Source: a virus
Length of the DNA stretch: 64,000 bases
Virus record (IMG/VR): IMGVR_UViG_3300028299_000006
Location: 1-64,000 of that record
Reading direction: 5' to 3' (one strand)
Part shown: positions 3,793 through 53,789 of the stretch, piece after piece
Layout of the letters: every line of letters starts with the position of its first letter
Position numbering within the stretch: the stretch's first letter is position 1
Notes under the pieces: generated by a model
Database searches by the model: none
Told to the model about the DNA's origin: nothing
Seen by the model: only the letters and a program-made list of their open reading frames with translations
Made by a program: the position numbers and the translations under genes

Positions 3793-4080
3793 TCACCTAA
3801 ATGTTTTATTTAATTCATCAGAATAATCAGATCTGAATTGTTTCGCGGCGTAATAATTAATATTTCTTAATGATTTCATTTTAACCCCACCCAACCAAGA
3901 AATTAAAGCGATAACACCCATAGTTATACCAATAACTAAATAATTAGGTAAGAGAAACCATATAAAAATGAATAATGGGGATATTTTTAGAATAAATTTG
4001 AATACACTATACCATCTGTTAAAATATAAAGCTTTTTTTGTATGATAATCACATCCAAATTTTTTCTCCAACATTTTCAT
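3793..4080 (-). CDS. Small membrane protein
   Basis: A 95-residue protein with two hydrophobic helices (about residues 27-45 and 49-66) and basic ends. No family recognised. A good host-type promoter precedes it: minus-strand TTTG (4142-4145), 20 bases, TATCTTTG (4114-4121). Confidence 0.65.
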   Translation of the reverse strand: MKMLEKKFGCDYHTKKALYFNRWYSVFKFILKISPLFIFIWFLLPNYLVIGITMGVIALISWLGGVKMKSLRNINYYAAKQFRSDYSDELNKTFR

Positions 4081-4113
4081 TATGTTTTGTTTTTATATAT
4101 TAATATCCTAATA

Positions 4114-4145
4114 CAAAGATAATGAATTTTTTATTCCTGTACAAA
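4114..4145 (-). promoter_or_regulatory. Host-type (Bacteroidota) promoter
   Basis: On the minus strand TTTG and TATCTTTG are separated by 20 bases, matching the TTTG/TAnnTTTG consensus at normal spacing. The -7 box is 33 bases before the gene starting at 4080. Best example of the early-type promoter in the window. Confidence 0.7.
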
Positions 4146-4148
4146 AAA

Positions 4149-4781
4149 TTACATCTTTTTTAAGAATACTTTTGTACTATCATTTTCAACTGTCCAAGTA
4201 TAGAAAAATGGACCACTACTATTGATCGTATCTCCAAGTATAATTTTATAAGACTTATATAATGTTATATCAGAAATAGTTGGAATTGGTGTACCAGATG
4301 GGAATCTAAATACAACATTTTCTTTTCCAATAAATCTACTACTGTATATACTATCAAATTCAAAAATATAATTTTTTGATGTTTCTGTTATTGTATAATT
4401 AACATTTATTTTTTCATTTTCTAATTTTATATTCCTAATATGGTACTGACAAAAAACACCAGTACCAATAAGTAACCCACTAGTTAGTAAATTAATTATT
4501 TTTACTAATTTTGTTCTATCTGGAAATAATGGTCTTATATTAATAACTAGATAAAAGAATGGAATTAGAATAAACCACATTGGTAACATAATATATACCA
4601 ATTCTGAGTTACCAATACTTAACCATTCAGTTAAACAATACATTAATGTCAACATTCCAATATATGGGAAAATATTAAGATGATACCATTTAAATTTTTT
4701 CTTAGGTTCCAATTCTTCCAATTCTTCATCTTCCAATGGCTCAAATTCGTCACAAAATGGATCAATTTCTTTATTTTTCAT
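4149..4781 (-). CDS. Membrane protein with acidic N-terminus
   Basis: A 210-residue protein: an acidic cytoplasmic start (about residues 1-27), three hydrophobic helices between about 33 and 113, then a soluble C-terminal domain of about 95 residues. No family recognised. Its start overlaps the 3' end of the coiled-coil gene at 4771-4977 by 11 bases, placing it in a minus-strand operon with the HD hydrolase. Confidence 0.7.
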   Translation of the reverse strand: MKNKEIDPFCDEFEPLEDEELEELEPKKKFKWYHLNIFPYIGMLTLMYCLTEWLSIGNSELVYIMLPMWFILIPFFYLVINIRPLFPDRTKLVKIINLLTSGLLIGTGVFCQYHIRNIKLENEKINVNYTITETSKNYIFEFDSIYSSRFIGKENVVFRFPSGTPIPTISDITLYKSYKIILGDTINSSGPFFYTWTVENDSTKVFLKKM

Positions 4782-4977
4782 TATTTAAGATTTTTATTTT
4801 TTCATCTTCTAACATTTTCATATCAGTATAGATACGATATCCTTCTTCCCCTAATTTATGAATAATATCCCAATTTTCTATTGATTTTGATATTTCACCA
4901 CGAAGTTTAGTTTTACATTGAATTAGTCGAATCTCTTTATTTTCAACTAATTTATTAATTTTATCAAATTTTTCCAT
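4771..4977 (-). CDS. Small charged helical protein
   Basis: A 68-residue, highly charged, probably all-helical (coiled-coil-like) protein, unrecognised. It overlaps both neighbouring genes by 11-14 bases, so it is translated within the same operon. Confidence 0.65.
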   Translation of the reverse strand: MEKFDKINKLVENKEIRLIQCKTKLRGEISKSIENWDIIHKLGEEGYRIYTDMKMLEDEKIKILNNEK

Positions 4978-11238: not shown

Positions 11239-11433
11239 ATGCATGATTTACGGAATACACCAAGAAGAGAAAGAAAAATTAATATAAGAGGATTTTTTAA
11301 AAAATTAAAATGGAAACATTTAATATATTTATTAATAATTATTATCTTATTCTTTCCAACAGTTTCTGGTACAATAATAGGTAATTGGATTGTTGATTTT
11401 TTAGGAACTATAATTAGTATAATAAATGGATAA
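11239..11433 (+). CDS. Small single-pass membrane protein
   Basis: A 64-residue protein: a basic N-terminal third (RNTPRRERK, KKLKWKH), then a hydrophobic helix (residues 29-46) and a second weaker hydrophobic stretch. The last codons overlap the next start (ATGGATAA), so the two are coupled. Unrecognised. Confidence 0.6.
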   Translation: MHDLRNTPRRERKINIRGFFKKLKWKHLIYLLIIIILFFPTVSGTIIGNWIVDFLGTIISIING

Positions 11434-25448: not shown

Positions 25449-26420
25449 ATGATAATAAATTTTAACGAATTTTCAGATGTTAATGACTTGATTGACGCTA
25501 TCCTAGATAAGATTAGTGATGAAGGTTATAAATCACTAACAGATAAAGAAAAGGATGTACTTAATAAACATTCAAAAGGTCAGAAAATAGATATGAACAC
25601 CATTAAAGGTGAAAAACCTACTGTAAAAAAACTTGATATGGATGATATCCCAACGGATGGAAATATCAAGGATTTTCTAGCAAATAGGGGTGGGTTTAGA
25701 GGAAATGATGCCCCATATTATGGTGAAATGAACCACCCAAATAGATTAAAAGTTGGTGATAAGATAAAACCAATGGCGGTTAGTGGAGATAAATTACCAA
25801 AATACGCTACAGATTTCTTGGAAACTAGTGATGAATTTGTTGTCCTTAGAGTTAATGATAGTGGTAAAGTTGATATTGGATGTTCTAGAAAATCTAATGG
25901 AAAAAAGAAAGTTTTTTATTTTTCATCAATGAGATTTAGAAAAGTGGATGAAGCGGAAGATTACGATTTTGACGATGATATTGAAGAAATTGGTGAGATT
26001 GGTGATCAAAATCCTGATGATTTTAATGAATTGGATTGGGAAAATGGGAAAGAATATGTGGATTTTACTGGTCAAGACAATCCAGCTCTAAAAGGACTAG
26101 GTAAAAAGAAAAAATTAGAACCACAAGATTATTATTTTCATGTTCAACAATTTGATAATTATATTATGATAGCTATGACATCAGTTGACTTTTTTAATAG
26201 ATATCATGGTTTAGATGATAATTTAGTTTCAGAAAGTCTATCACAACAAGTAAGAGCTGCGATGAATCGTTCTGGGGTTTACGCTGATACGGAAGCGGCG
26301 GAAGCGATGTGGGAAGCTATACCAGGATTTACAGTTGAGGAAATCACAAATAATATGATAAACGAGGGATTCTTACATGATCAAGAGTTTATAGATATGT
26401 TAGAACATGGTGCTGGATAA
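25449..26420 (+). CDS. Hypothetical protein, paralogue of 24738-25415
   Basis: A 323-residue protein with a leader-like start (MIINFNEFSDVNDLID), a region shared with its upstream paralogue (about residues 100-260) and a unique helical C-terminus. No known family. Its stop overlaps the Smr gene start (GATAATGG). Confidence 0.7.
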   Translation: MIINFNEFSDVNDLIDAILDKISDEGYKSLTDKEKDVLNKHSKGQKIDMNTIKGEKPTVKKLDMDDIPTDGNIKDFLANRGGFRGNDAPYYGEMNHPNRLKVGDKIKPMAVSGDKLPKYATDFLETSDEFVVLRVNDSGKVDIGCSRKSNGKKKVFYFSSMRFRKVDEAEDYDFDDDIEEIGEIGDQNPDDFNELDWENGKEYVDFTGQDNPALKGLGKKKKLEPQDYYFHVQQFDNYIMIAMTSVDFFNRYHGLDDNLVSESLSQQVRAAMNRSGVYADTEAAEAMWEAIPGFTVEEITNNMINEGFLHDQEFIDMLEHGAG

Positions 26421-26644
26421 TGGAGAAGGTTGATTTACATGGGGTTAGACACGGCGAAGTAAGTGGTTTATTAATTCGGAAAATAGAAGAATTTTGGAAT
26501 AAAGATGTTGAATTACATATTGTTACGGGATATAGTGAACAGATGAAGGAAATTGTAATTAATATTTTAAATGAATATAAACTAGACTATCAGATAGGTG
26601 ACTTCTTAAAATCAAATAATGGATATATAACGACTATTGTTTAA
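26420..26644 (+). CDS. Stand-alone Smr domain protein
   Basis: A 74-residue protein that is essentially one Smr domain: VDLHG near the start, IVTGYSEQMK in the middle, and a C-terminal NNGYITTIV strand (normally NxGxxxV). Smr domains bind or cleave nucleic acids, including collided-ribosome mRNAs (SmrB) and branched DNA (MutS2). The canonical HGxG loop is altered to TGYS here, so activity is uncertain. Confidence 0.75.
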   Translation: MEKVDLHGVRHGEVSGLLIRKIEEFWNKDVELHIVTGYSEQMKEIVINILNEYKLDYQIGDFLKSNNGYITTIV

Positions 26645-26963
26645 TCTGTCTGTTAATCCACCCCATTATTATACTAACAATATATTTTATATCTTCTTCT
26701 TCTAATATTTCGCATTTATATAAACATTCCCTACAACAAGTACCTGTCCCATGTTGGGCGATAAAAACTGGGTGACCTTTATATGGAGTTTGTTTGCCAT
26801 CCTTTTCAGTTTTTTCTTTCAATCTCTTTGATATAAAATCAAGCGCGTGACTTTCTATTACATCAAGACCTTTACTTTTTATGTACTCAAAATCCTTTTC
26901 CTTTAATTTCATTTTTGAACGAAATTTGGACTTCTCTAATTGGTCTAATTTATTATCAATCAT
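26634..26963 (-). CDS. DUF4186 protein
   Basis: A 109-residue protein with the DUF4186 signature: FRSKMKLKEKDFEYIKSKG, SHALDFISKRL, then GKQTPYKGHPVFIAQHGTGT followed by CCRECLYK. The conserved Cys/His residues suggest metal binding. The function of the family is unknown. Confidence 0.85.
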   Translation of the reverse strand: MIDNKLDQLEKSKFRSKMKLKEKDFEYIKSKGLDVIESHALDFISKRLKEKTEKDGKQTPYKGHPVFIAQHGTGTCCRECLYKCEILEEEDIKYIVSIIMGWINRQIKQ

Positions 26964-39775: not shown

Positions 39776-40076
39776 CGGGATGTAGTTCAGTTGGCTAGAA
39801 TACGCGGTTTGGGTCCGTGAGGTCGTAGGTTTAATGTTTGGACCCCTTTGATAGTAATATCAAAATGAAAATCGGATGAATTGCTGGAAATCTAAGTTCG
39901 TGAGAATATGACAATCAGCAGCCAAGCTTTTGGTACACCAAAAGAAGGTTCAGAGACTAGTGGAGAGATATAGTTCTCTTAATAACCACATAAGCGTCCG
40001 ACATCCATTTATGGATGATGATATAGTCCAATCCTTATAGAAATATAAGGTAAGATTGCGAGTCCTATCATCCCGA
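39776..40076 (+). tRNA. tRNA-Pro(TGG) interrupted in the T-loop by a group I intron
   Basis: The 5' exon 39776-39831 holds acceptor CGGGATG, D-arm, anticodon loop TTTGGGT (TGG) and T-stem GTAGG plus TT. The 3' exon 40059-40076 is CGAGT CCTAT CATCCCG A. Joined, they give a canonical T-loop TTCGAGT. The intervening 227 bases carry group I intron core motifs. Confidence 0.85.
39832..40058 (+). mobile_element. Group I intron in tRNA-Pro
   Basis: 227 bases, ending in G as group I introns do. Core segments in order: P (GAATTGCTGGAAA, about 39878), Q (AATCAGCAGCCAAGC, about 39913), R (GGTTCAGAGACTAG, 39947-39960) and S (GATATAGTCC, about 40019). The exon GGTT pairs with an internal guide containing GGACC, with a U-G pair at the splice site. 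No open reading frame inside. Confidence 0.87.
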
Positions 40077-40081
40077 CATTT

Positions 40082-40350
40082 GGCCCCATAACATAACGGA
40101 TAATGTACAAGTCTTTAAGAGAGGAGCTTTTATTGAGAAATTAATAAAATGGAATCTGTCAAATTCGGGGAAACCTTTAAAATGGTAATCCCGAGCCAAA
40201 TCTCGAAAGAGAGAGGTGTAGAGACTAGACGGCAGACACCTAAGTTGTAAAATAAGGTGAAGGGATAGTCCAGACCACAAACAGAAATGGCAATAAAAAT
40301 TGTAGTGGTAAGCTAAACTTGAAATCTAGGTTCGATTCCTAGTGGGGTCA
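40082..40350 (+). tRNA. tRNA-Arg(TCT) interrupted in the anticodon by a group I intron
   Basis: The 5' exon 40082-40115 (acceptor GGCCCCA, D-arm ACAT/ATGT, CAAGT-CTT) and the 3' exon 40313-40350 (CTAA-ACTTG, T-arm CTAGG-TTCGATT-CCTAG, TGGGGTC, A). Joining after CTT and after the intron's final G gives loop CTTCTAA, anticodon TCT. Other splice positions would give Lys(TTT) or Ser(GCT) but lack the final G. Confidence 0.82.
40116..40312 (+). mobile_element. Group I intron in tRNA-Arg
   Basis: 197 bases with P (TTCGGGGAAACC, about 40164), Q (GTAATCCCGAGCCAAA, about 40185), R (GGTGTAGAGACTAGACGGC, 40215-40233) and S (AAGGGATAGTCCAG, about 40259) and a terminal G. It has no coding capacity. It inserts within the anticodon, the usual zone for bacterial tRNA introns. 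Confidence 0.87.
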
Positions 40351-40360
40351 CAAAATTAAC

Positions 40361-40437
40361 GAGGGCGTGGCCGAGCGGTCTAAGGCAACATTCTGCAAAA
40401 GTGTTTATAATCGTGGGTTCGAATCCCCCCGCCCTCT
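40361..40437 (+). tRNA. tRNA-Cys(GCA)
   Basis: Acceptor GAGGGCG/CGCCCTC, anticodon arm ACATT-CTGCAAA-AGTGT, D-stem GCC/GGC, T-loop TTCGAAT. One T-stem mismatch. Discriminator T. Confidence 0.82.
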
Positions 40438-40446
40438 CGAAATTAA

Positions 40447-40504
40447 AGAATACGAACAGCAAATTAAAAGAAAATAGGCAAAACTTTCAACAAGACCGTA
40501 TTCT
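40447..40504 (+). ncRNA. Structured RNA element copy 1 (AGAATACG stem, ACAGCAAA)
   Basis: An 8-bp closing stem AGAATACG/CGTATTCT with AACAGCAAA right after the 5' strand, 58 bases in all. Two relatives precede the DUF2828 gene (52116-52241 and 52274-52330), with compensating changes in the stem. The boxA-like site 2 follows five bases later. Confidence 0.6.
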
Positions 40505-40509
40505 GTAAA

Positions 40510-40605: not shown

Positions 40606-40679
40606 GCAATAGTAGCTTAGTTGATTAAAGCGTAGCCTTGCCAAGGCTAAGATCGTGAGTTTGATCCTCACCTATTGCT
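40606..40679 (+). tRNA. tRNA-Gly(GCC)
   Basis: Full cloverleaf: acceptor GCAATAG/CTATTGC, D-stem GCTT/AAGC, anticodon TAGCC-TTGCCAA-GGCTA, T-arm GTGAG-TTTGATC-CTCAC, discriminator T. Confidence 0.93.
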
Positions 40680-40708
40680 CAAAATTCAACTATTATTTTG
40701 AGCTCCTT

Positions 40709-48907: not shown

Positions 48908-48940
48908 TGAACCACTACACTAAAAATCTAGTTTCTACGC
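48908..48940 (-). repeat. IS605-type right end / omega-RNA 3' end of the tnpB element
   Basis: On the minus strand GCGTAGAAAC, TAGATTTTTAGTGTAGTGG and TTCA span the last codons of tnpB and a few bases beyond. The same pattern recurs without tnpB at 32031, 38055, 55105 and 62857. Confidence 0.5.
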
Positions 48941-50069
48941 CACAAGCACAATGTAACCATTCACTTTGAGTGACGCTGGGTTGGTTCCTCAACCCAATTT
49001 TCTTTATATTTATAGCAGCATTTATGTCTCTATCGTGTTTTTCGTTACATTTAGGACAAATCCATTTTCTATTATTTAAAGTTAAATCTTTATTAATTGT
49101 TCCACAAGAACTACAAGTTTTTGATGATGGATCAAATCTACCTATTATTGAAAGGGTTTTTCCATACCAATCACATTTATATTCAATCATAGATTTAAAT
49201 TCATTCCATCCCATATCACTTATTGCTCTTGCTAATTTATGATTTTTAACCATACTAGACACATTAAGATCCTCCATACAGATTGTATCATAATCATCAA
49301 CCAAATATTTACTTATTTTGTGTAAATAATCCTGTCTTTGATTTCTTATATGTTCATATAAAAGAGAAATTTTCATTTTTTGTTTTTGATAATGTTTAGA
49401 ATCTTTTTGTTTTCTTGTTAAGGATCGCTGTTCAATTCTTAATTTATTCATAGCAGATTTAAAGAAATCGTGGTTCTTGAATTTCTTTCCATCTGAAGTT
49501 ATACAGAAATCTTTTATACCTAAATCTAAACCAACTGATGTGCTTTCTTTTATTTCTCTTTTATCAGGTTTTAATTCACTAGTATCAATAAGTATAGACA
49601 CATAATATTTATTAGTGACTGATTTACTTACAGTTACAGTTTTAATTTCACCTTTAAATTCTCTATGTAAATCAATTCCAACCAATTTTAATTTAGGTAT
49701 GAAGATTTGTTTTTTATTTTCTAAATATACTCCTTGTGGTAATTGAAATGATTGTTTTCCAAATTTTCTTTTAAATTTGGGAAAACCACCACCTCTAAAA
49801 AAATTTGTGTAGGCATTATCCAGATTTCTTAAACTCATTTGTAATGCCTGTGAAGGACTTTCTTTTAACCAAGGACATTCGGTATCTTTAAGTTCTTTAA
49901 TTTGATTTGATAAATCAATGCAGGTATAATTTTTTTTATTTCCTATGTAAGCACTAATTTTTGTTTCTAGACCAAGGTTATAGACAAATCTAACTTGTCC
50001 AAAAATATGAGACATCAATTTTTTTTGTTCCTGATTTGGATATATTCTATATTTGTATGATTTTAACAT
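48915..50069 (-). CDS. tnpB: TnpB RNA-guided nuclease (IS200/IS605 family)
   Basis: A 384-residue complete TnpB. N-terminal KSYKYRIYPNQEQ, RuvC residues Asp in GLDLGIKDF, Glu in CMEDLNVSS and Asp in DRDINAAINI, and a four-Cys zinc ribbon (CSSCG ... CPKCN). TnpB cuts DNA next to a short motif using an omega-RNA made from the element's 3' end. No TnpA transposase is in the window, so the element is non-autonomous. A CTTACAAAA/TTTTGTAAG hairpin lies just upstream (50072-50099). Confidence 0.93.
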   Translation of the reverse strand: MLKSYKYRIYPNQEQKKLMSHIFGQVRFVYNLGLETKISAYIGNKKNYTCIDLSNQIKELKDTECPWLKESPSQALQMSLRNLDNAYTNFFRGGGFPKFKRKFGKQSFQLPQGVYLENKKQIFIPKLKLVGIDLHREFKGEIKTVTVSKSVTNKYYVSILIDTSELKPDKREIKESTSVGLDLGIKDFCITSDGKKFKNHDFFKSAMNKLRIEQRSLTRKQKDSKHYQKQKMKISLLYEHIRNQRQDYLHKISKYLVDDYDTICMEDLNVSSMVKNHKLARAISDMGWNEFKSMIEYKCDWYGKTLSIIGRFDPSSKTCSSCGTINKDLTLNNRKWICPKCNEKHDRDINAAINIKKIGLRNQPSVTQSEWLHCACGVETRFLV

Positions 50070-52115: not shown

Positions 52116-52241
52116 AAGATACGTACAGCAAAACAAAGAACTATTATGAAGGGGTTTTACATCATTTTTACAGTTTCCCCAAAAATTTAAAAACTATAAA
52201 ATGTGATTTTGAGGTAAGTTTTAATAAACTTCTCGTATCTT
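52116..52241 (+). ncRNA. Structured RNA element copy 2 (AAGATACG stem, ACAGCAAA)
   Basis: AAGATACG (52116-52123) pairs with CGTATCTT (52234-52241), with TACAGCAAA right after the 5' strand as in the other two copies. It is longer than those (126 against 57-58 bases) and encloses a GGGG/CCCC hairpin. It lies in the leader of the Ro-like gene. Confidence 0.55.
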
Positions 52242-52273
52242 GAAGAGTGGTGTTACCCACCTACGATTGTTAA

Positions 52274-52330
52274 AGAATACTGAAACAGCAAAAACTTGGA
52301 CAAATAGATTCGACATCTAATAAGTATTCT
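52274..52330 (+). ncRNA. Structured RNA element copy 3 (AGAATACT stem, ACAGCAAA)
   Basis: AGAATACT/AGTATTCT closing stem, then GAAACAGCAAA and a TAGAT-TCGAC-ATCTA hairpin that resembles a T-arm. 57 bases, ending 19 bases before the DUF2828 start. The stem differs from copy 1 by a compensated pair (CG-terminal against CT/AG). Confidence 0.6.
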
Positions 52331-52349
52331 GAAAAAATATTTTAAAATT

Positions 52350-53789
52350 ATGGCAAGATCACAATCACAATTGATTAATGTTCTAAGACAAAATGATACT
52401 AGAACAGAAAAAGGTATGTTAACAAATTCAACATCATTAAATGGATGTGTTGATATGTTTTTTATGGCGGGCGCGGCACGTCATTGGACAAAGGAACAAA
52501 AAATTAATCTTTTTCAAAAAGCGTTAACCGAAGATCCACAAACCGCGTTAAGACTATTGTTTTGGTCTAGAGATGTTCGTGGTGGAGCTGGAGAAAGACA
52601 ATTTTTTAGAGATTGTTTAACATTACTTAATGATAATTATCCAGAATATCTTATAAAAATATCTGAATTCATACCAGAATTTGGTCGTTGGGATGATTTA
52701 TTTTTCACTGACCCAATTGTTTATCTACCTTTAATTAAAAAGGGATTAGATGAACGTAACGCGTTGTTGGCGAAATGGATGCCAAGAAAAAATCAATATA
52801 ACAATTTATCAAAAAATGTTCGTGAATATCTTGAAATTTCACCAAAGGAATATAGAAAATTAATAGTTGAATTATCAAATACTATTGAACAAAAAATGTG
52901 TGACAATAAATTTGATGAAATTAATTATGAACATGTTCCATCGGTTGCGATGAATCGTTATAGAAAATCATTTTATCGTAATGATGAAACAAGATTTTCA
53001 GAATATATTGATATGGTTAATAGTGGTGAGAAGAAAATGAACGCTGGAGTACTTTATCCACATCAAATCTATCAAGCTCTTATGAAACAAGGAAGAGCGG
53101 ATAAAGGAACATTTAAAATCAATCAAAACGACGCGATAGAAGCGATGTGGAAATCATTACCAAATTATATGGAAGGAACAACTCATAGAATATTACCTAT
53201 GGTTGATGTATCACCTTCTATGACTTGGTATGGTGGTTTACCATTAGATGTATCTATTTCTCTTGGTATTTATATAAGTGAAAGAAACGAGAGTATTTTC
53301 AAAGACGCGTTTATGACTTTTTCAGAAAATCCAACAATTGAGTTTTTAAAAGGAACTTTCGTTGAAAGAGCTACACAATTGAGATATTCAAAATGGGGAA
53401 AAACAACAAACCTAGAAAAAGCGTTTGATGTATTGTTGACAAAATCATTAGAACATAGTATTAGTGATGAATATATGCCTACAATTTTATTAATTATATC
53501 TGACATGCAATTTGATTTATCATCTAGTAGGAAATCAGCGTTAGATATGATAAAAGAAAAATATGAAGAAAATGGATATAAATTACCACATATATTCTTC
53601 TGGAATGTCAGATCTAAAGAGGATTGTGTTCCTGCTGATGATAATCAACAAGGAGTTGGGTTGATTTCTGGATTCAGTCCATCAATATTAAAAAACACAT
53701 TAAATGGTGTTATTGACAGAAAACCAACACCTTATGAAACTATGATGAGTGTAGTGAATTCAGGACGATATGATATGATTACAATATAA
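52350..53789 (+). CDS. DUF2828 / TROVE-like (Ro-related) protein with vWA domain
   Basis: A 479-residue protein. The N-terminal helical part has ALRLLFWSRDVRGGAGERQFF and FIPEFGRWDDLF, the signature shared by DUF2828 and TROVE (Ro60) proteins. The C-terminal vWA domain has a MIDAS-like PMVDVSPSM and a later ISDMQFD. Ro-type proteins are rings that bind Y RNAs and damaged RNAs. The upstream leader contains two structured RNA elements that could be its ligands (inference). Confidence 0.8.
   Translation: MARSQSQLINVLRQNDTRTEKGMLTNSTSLNGCVDMFFMAGAARHWTKEQKINLFQKALTEDPQTALRLLFWSRDVRGGAGERQFFRDCLTLLNDNYPEYLIKISEFIPEFGRWDDLFFTDPIVYLPLIKKGLDERNALLAKWMPRKNQYNNLSKNVREYLEISPKEYRKLIVELSNTIEQKMCDNKFDEINYEHVPSVAMNRYRKSFYRNDETRFSEYIDMVNSGEKKMNAGVLYPHQIYQALMKQGRADKGTFKINQNDAIEAMWKSLPNYMEGTTHRILPMVDVSPSMTWYGGLPLDVSISLGIYISERNESIFKDAFMTFSENPTIEFLKGTFVERATQLRYSKWGKTTNLEKAFDVLLTKSLEHSISDEYMPTILLIISDMQFDLSSSRKSALDMIKEKYEENGYKLPHIFFWNVRSKEDCVPADDNQQGVGLISGFSPSILKNTLNGVIDRKPTPYETMMSVVNSGRYDMITI

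Follow-up and report, generated by a model that had tools for sequence, protein, structure and literature searches.

What kind of RNA precedes the Ro-like gene of this virus, and what would it do for the protein encoded there? The window (i.e., the whole 64,000-nt stretch that was analyzed) makes up most of a 70.8-kb virus record. An earlier note had singled out three elements in this window and proposed that they are Y-RNA-like ligands. In this report, we found that these elements belong to a conserved, covarying RNA family that is larger than first noted, a result that comparison of its sequences confirms. We consider it quite likely that they are Y-RNA-like, small structured RNA partners of the adjacent DUF2828-type Ro protein. 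Further, the frame of these RNAs matches that of the class I RNAs of Dictyostelium, which have been thought to be restricted to social amoebae; this match is new.

The elements and their relatives

All three elements are on the + strand. Element 1 (40445-40506) is a 62-nt small RNA frame with the stem AGAATACG/CGTATTCT, the flanks AA...GT, and an A followed by ACAGCAAA. It is located between the genes for tRNA-Cys (gca; 40361-40438, + strand), just upstream, and tRNA-Gly (gcc; 40606-40680, + strand), downstream. The other two fill the whole leader of the Ro-like gene; the proposed arrangement, with two elements in that leader and the third among tRNAs, is therefore confirmed. Element 2 (52116-52241) is a long variant in which the closing stem AAGATACG/CGTATCTT is followed by T and ACAGCAAA. 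Its interior contains the hairpin AGTTTtaataAACT and an H-type pseudoknot, in which GGGG (52151-52154) pairs with the loop bases CCCC (52177-52180) of the hairpin that follows. Element 3 (52272-52332) has the frame with the stem AGAATACT/AGTATTCT and GAA followed by ACAGCAAA, and its 3' end is 17 nt ahead of the Ro-like start codon. It also includes a small hairpin, TAGAT-TCGAC-ATCTA (52305-52319, + strand), that the earlier note had likened to a T arm; the 5-nt loop of this hairpin is too short for one.

The 8-bp closing stems described previously are present and perfect in all three elements. The motif does follow the stem, with a small correction: spacers of 1, 1, and 3 bases (A, T, and GAA) intervene between stem and ACAGCAA(A) in elements 1, 2, and 3, respectively. 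In elements 1 and 3, the frame reaches outward to AAAG...CUG. The case for the elements from within the window is modest. By itself, ACAGCAAA is weak evidence, with 4 copies in the window vs. 1.07 expected, and single-sequence folding of the three elements is unremarkable and uninformative (z of -1.7, -0.2, and -1.3). An Rfam scan of the window at the gathering score recognized just tRNAs and two group I introns (RF00028), and not the elements. These introns are 54 nt apart in the tRNA region (39822-40294); elsewhere, a TnpB-like gene (OrfB_IS605, Cas12f1-like TNB) occupies 48915-50069 on the - strand.

We accept the elements as real because their relatives decide the matter. A covariance model, R1, was trained on 23 short elements of other phages (alignment A3), with the window left out. 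The search of related phages with such a model, as the earlier note had suggested, was successful, and R1 recovers both element 1 (40445-40506; 44.5 bits, E 2.4e-9) and element 3 (52272-52332; 23.6 bits, E 0.0011). In the training alignment, seven of nine stem pairs have two-sided changes, and 90.8% are paired vs. at most 50% when slid, a percentage that is biased because the A3 elements were chosen for possessing a stem. The 83 matches from non-training loci, in an alignment (A5) that is fitted to R1, have 93.5% of their cells paired, vs. 69.4% when shuffled and at most 47% when slid. They contain 148 two-sided changes vs. 40 in the shuffled case; the compensated base changes reported at the outset thus recur across the family.

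The common frame consists of AAG, a covarying stem of 7-9 bp, ACAGCAA, a variable loop, the other strand of the stem, and CUG(U). Invariant or almost so in A5 are the G in the outer pair, the CAGCAA that follows the stem, and the terminal CUG, and the outer G-C pair of the stem is kept in 72 of 73 non-training matches. The 5' AAG is conserved in 67, 69, and 82 of the 83 sequences at its successive positions, and the 3' CUGU in 82, 73, 83, and 59. Elements are typically 55-65 nt long, and their loops are mostly short and A-rich. Element 2 scores 12 bits with R1 (E 1.6). Its backing comes from a single homologue in a close relative, locus L002. Both the closing stem and the internal pseudoknot have two-sided changes there, and GGGG/CCCC of the pseudoknot is replaced in compensatory fashion by UAGG/CCUA.

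Two further observations were made downstream of DUF2828 genes. A variant has ACAGGAA in place of ACAGCAA (L061 7436-7500). Also, a second structured stretch of 180-260 nt, starting with TACAGCAA(A), comes after a short element in L051 (7788-7974), L055 (7492-7718), L075 (~3905-4160), and L084 (~4295-4545); it matched no Rfam family in the loci scanned.

Linkage to genes for Ro-like DUF2828 proteins

The Ro-like gene (52350-53789, + strand) encodes 479 amino acids, in which Pfam recognizes DUF2828 (PF11443) and a DUF7788 vWA domain (PF25043). These two families alone exceed their cut-offs; the TROVE profile (PF05731) has no match to the window protein, and a profile comparison with PDB chains of TROVE proteins yields E-values of 0.3 to 1. 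The protein thus differs in sequence family from Ro60/Rsr, but its predicted overall fold is the same. AlphaFold2 supplied with 42 relatives returned a model with a pLDDT of 88.7 (63.7 with 7 sequences), and all ten Foldseek matches in the PDB at E<=1e-3 are Ro60/TROVE structures (E 3e-8 to 8e-6, TM about 0.5-0.6), including Ro60 of Thermus phage phiLo (9l5y) and Xenopus Ro. Common to both proteins are helical repeats and a vWA domain with a DxSxS metal site, and the predicted metal-site residues D286, S288, and S290 are invariant in the 42 relatives. The DUF2828 protein is therefore predicted to have a Ro60 fold with a vWA metal site, and the model favors the TROVE-like label that the gene had been given. 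At least 681 sequenced phage records contain DUF2828 proteins, and RtcB is encoded adjacent to DUF2828 in LR756501 and nearby in LP-048.

The RNA family is tied to these genes by position and strand. At DUF2828 loci of other IMG/VR contigs, ACAGCAA is accompanied by a preceding stem strand and its partner in 62 of 115 occurrences in the sense of the gene vs. 1 of 35 in antisense. Across the 84 phage loci with DUF2828, R1 has 87 matches, every one on the DUF2828 sense strand, and no match at the thresholds used in 33 loci. At E<0.01, 65 of 69 matches are within 600 nt of the DUF2828 gene, a zone comprising 10% of the searched bases, and none is inside the gene; the significance of this clustering is overstated by tail probabilities, which are too small because the loci are related. 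A set of 80 contigs from bacterial and archaeal assemblies, some of which are probably prophages or phage contigs, gave 49 matches in 34 DUF2828 loci, all sense and 45 of them upstream; the remaining 46 loci had no R1 match at the thresholds used.

Among ten cultured DUF2828 phages, eight (KVP40, FelixO1, Jubie, LP-048, F372, S13, VRE9_2, and LAh_9) have a best R1 match of E<1e-3, and these matches mostly adjoin the DUF2828 gene or fall in tRNA arrays. For example, Listeria phage LP-048 has three elements immediately ahead of the gene, Aeromonas phage LAh_9 has nine matches no more than 4 kb from it, Jubie has two in the gap that follows its “Ro-like” gp54, and FelixO1 has several in the tRNA array that follows the gene. 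In Lak-B1 and phiN3, DUF2828 is present and R1 matches are weak only. The family is missing from the controls lacking DUF2828: in T4, SPO1, phiKZ, K, T5, and P-SSM2, the best R1 match has an E of 0.33. R1 does not match the stable RNAs of T4 (species 1 and 2), and a small set of TROVE loci, nine short ones with eight genes, yielded no element. Of 34 records gathered by the RNA pattern alone, 12 contain DUF2828, as do 6 of the 8 that are at least 90 kb; it was not detected in two element-bearing contigs of more than 100 kb, which are fragments.

Purified particles of Listeria phage CKA15 were found to contain its DUF2828 protein, for which an Rsr-like nature was suggested, and putative Y RNAs were proposed near the gene (PMC12282133). 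Three R1 elements are directly upstream of this Rsr-like gene. The most abundant noncoding RNA of CKA15 comes from a region (26,236-26,727) that its authors left unidentified (PMC12282133). We rejected an R1-type element as its source; the region matches the ROOL RNA (L117 3196-3747, i.e., CKA15 26,195-26,746; 90 bits, E 2e-18, slightly under the cut-off). A further ROOL match is at L110 1466-2017.

Slots in tRNA arrays, proposed role, and alternatives

Beyond what the earlier note had described, copies of the element are slotted into tRNA arrays at 0-5 nt from the tRNAs. In L125, a copy at 11338-11399 is between tRNA-Gln (ending at 11337) and tRNA-Tyr (starting at 11404). In L146, one (3878-3936) is between a tmRNA (ending at 3875) and tRNA-Gly (starting at 3940), and another (4764-4822) is between tRNA-Pro (ending at 4763) and tRNA-Thr (starting at 4828). 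Such array copies may be tens to hundreds of kb from the DUF2828 gene (W01, L125, and L146), and a genome can have several copies (W01). On several viral contigs, tmRNA genes are also located close to DUF2828 or right beside an element (L025 8927-9402, L033 8793-9285, L104 2620-2989, L126, L146, and L160).

A Y-RNA-like ligand is the best inference from these facts, and with it would come processed small RNAs, their binding by the protein, and a function for the resulting complex. Maturation of the neighboring tRNAs would free the array copies with ends at AAAG and CUGU. The constant frame (AAG, stem, single-stranded ACAGCAA, stem, and CUG) would likely be the handle to which the protein binds. 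The loop would be variable cargo, usually unstructured and sometimes a pseudoknot or a tRNA-like or circularly permuted tRNA-like module. By analogy to bacterial Ro-Y RNA complexes, the ring of Ro would hold the RNA, which would gate the entry of other RNAs, and the longer forms would recruit or mimic tRNA. The phage Ro would help to deal with RNAs that are damaged or misfolded, probably tRNAs of the phage, in concert with the RtcB ligase where present. That the complex is used to handle tRNA or other structured RNA during infection is the weakest step of this mechanism; we advance it tentatively, on the strength of the same analogy.

Could the elements act in cis instead, as structured mRNA leaders that let the Ro-like protein, or a metabolite, control expression of its gene? 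Many copies do immediately precede the gene in sense orientation, and in the window they take up the entire leader. However, many others are downstream of the gene (e.g., in L025, L033, and L043) or far off in tRNA arrays (W01, L125, and L146), the first element of the window included, and tandem copies with different stems would be unusual for a leader. We therefore regard a purely cis-acting role as unlikely, while noting that autoregulation may exist beside a role in trans. The slots between tRNAs and the several copies per genome could also bring to mind hairpins of tRNA-rich regions that serve in processing or as spacers, or small mobile repeats of such regions, with no link to Ro. This notion is very improbable: the elements do not occur in tRNA-rich T4, T5, and other phages without DUF2828, whereas bacterial and archaeal DUF2828 loci do have them, and the copies have only the letters of the frame in common, with stems and loops that differ, unlike those of mobile repeats.

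If the elements are indeed Y-RNA-like partners of Ro, a candidate RNA, with the signature of stem, CAGCAA, stem, and CUG, has been supplied for DUF2828 proteins, which had no assigned RNA partner. This finding would also account for a small-RNA family hidden in phage tRNA arrays, and it would connect phage Ro, RtcB, and tRNA repair.

Resemblance to YrlA and to Dictyostelium class I RNA

As to the connection to tRNA-like Y RNAs raised in the earlier note, true tRNA-like inserts are present in some relatives; such modules are missing from the window elements and from most short ones. tRNA-like modules are in the loops of L061 7703-7776 and L099 10865-10949, and circularly permuted ones are in two unrelated phages, Jubie (L109 4506-4640) and FelixO1 (L108 5461-5591), where the order by fold is T arm, capped acceptor helix, D arm. 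The Jubie module matches the Rfam family YrlA (RF02553; E 3.6e-5), at 39.3 bits vs. a cut-off of 69. Because this match is in the loop of the frame, a single RNA unites the CAGCAA frame with the module of a bacterial Y RNA. The likeness to YrlA comprises an element encoded beside a protein of predicted Ro fold and, in Jubie (by the Rfam match) and FelixO1 (by fold), a permuted tRNA-like module. The differences are that most elements have no tRNA module, that some inserts are tRNA-like in the normal order, that the phage elements have the frame with CAGCAA, and that the Jubie match is below the cut-off.

The close resemblance to Dictyostelium class I RNA (RF01414) was not part of the earlier note. 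For the comparison of motifs, we used the full 11-nt class I consensus. In A5, its positions C6, C9, A10, and A11 are kept in 83, 83, 83, and 81 of the 83 sequences, and T3 in just 55. Class I RNAs are ~60 nt long, start with AAG, end with CUGU, and have a covarying stem whose outer G-C pair is invariant; the motif after the 5' stem has conserved T3, C6, C9, A10, and A11 (PMC7919456). Kjellin et al. (2021) sought relatives in other eukaryotes and in Myxococcus and concluded that these RNAs are unique to dictyostelids (PMC7919456). Our literature search found no paper connecting them with phages.

In the window record, the best RF01414 match is element 1 (40448-40505, E 0.02). The top phage match, in LR756501, has 37.1 bits (E 5.9e-6) vs. 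a gathering score of 41.5 bits; no match in the DUF2828 phages scanned is at or above that score, and for this reason we keep the phage RNAs apart from the members of RF01414. T4, which is without the element, gives a match of E 0.0024. RF01414 E-values alone are therefore insufficient, and only coincidence with R1 was used: 5 of 6 matches in LR756501 and 8 of 9 in LAh_9 coincide with R1 matches, and the top matches in KVP40, LP-048, and FelixO1 are R1 sites.

That the two kinds of RNA are built alike is well supported by these sequence comparisons. Whether the likeness reflects descent is a closer matter. Chance, or convergence of unrelated families on a short motif, has nearly an even probability in our estimation: the common core is about 10 letters and one stem, every RF01414 match is below the cut-off, and T4 yields one without any element. 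Against coincidence, the top matches of the amoebal model in DUF2828 phages fall on R1 sites, and the published anatomy (PMC7919456) is matched in the ends, the outer G-C pair, the length, and the place of the motif. Coincidence would affect nothing but the amoebal link, and a Ro ligand in phages is compatible with it. Conversely, we hold it to be a little short of an even bet that class I RNAs and their prokaryotic counterparts are one ancient family whose common job is to serve as the ligand of a DUF2828-type Ro protein. If so, class I RNAs would be no dictyostelid invention tied to multicellularity, but rather a branch of the Y-RNA world that is common to amoebae, phages, bacteria, and archaea. 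The placement of the elements beside a Ro-type gene, taken with their resemblance to the amoebal RNA, therefore suggests a testable function for both. It would be the first hint of a new type of protein partner for class I RNAs.

In sum, the phage-type elements and class I RNAs are alike in being ~60 nt long, in having AAG/CUGU ends, and in existing in many copies. In both, a short stem that covaries and keeps its outer G-C pair is followed directly, on its 5' side, by an ACAGCAA-type motif, and the loop varies. The hosts differ, being social amoebae for class I RNA and phages, bacteria, and archaea for the elements described herein. Unlike class I RNAs, the phage-type elements are tied to DUF2828-Ro genes and tRNA arrays, and some carry very long loops with tRNA-like modules. 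Further traits of class I RNAs are the DUSE promoter, which is a eukaryotic one, and a role in development. The known binder of class I RNA in amoebae is Rnp1A, an RRM protein, and no Ro partner has been reported for it, whereas the phage-type elements are encoded beside a protein with a predicted Ro fold.
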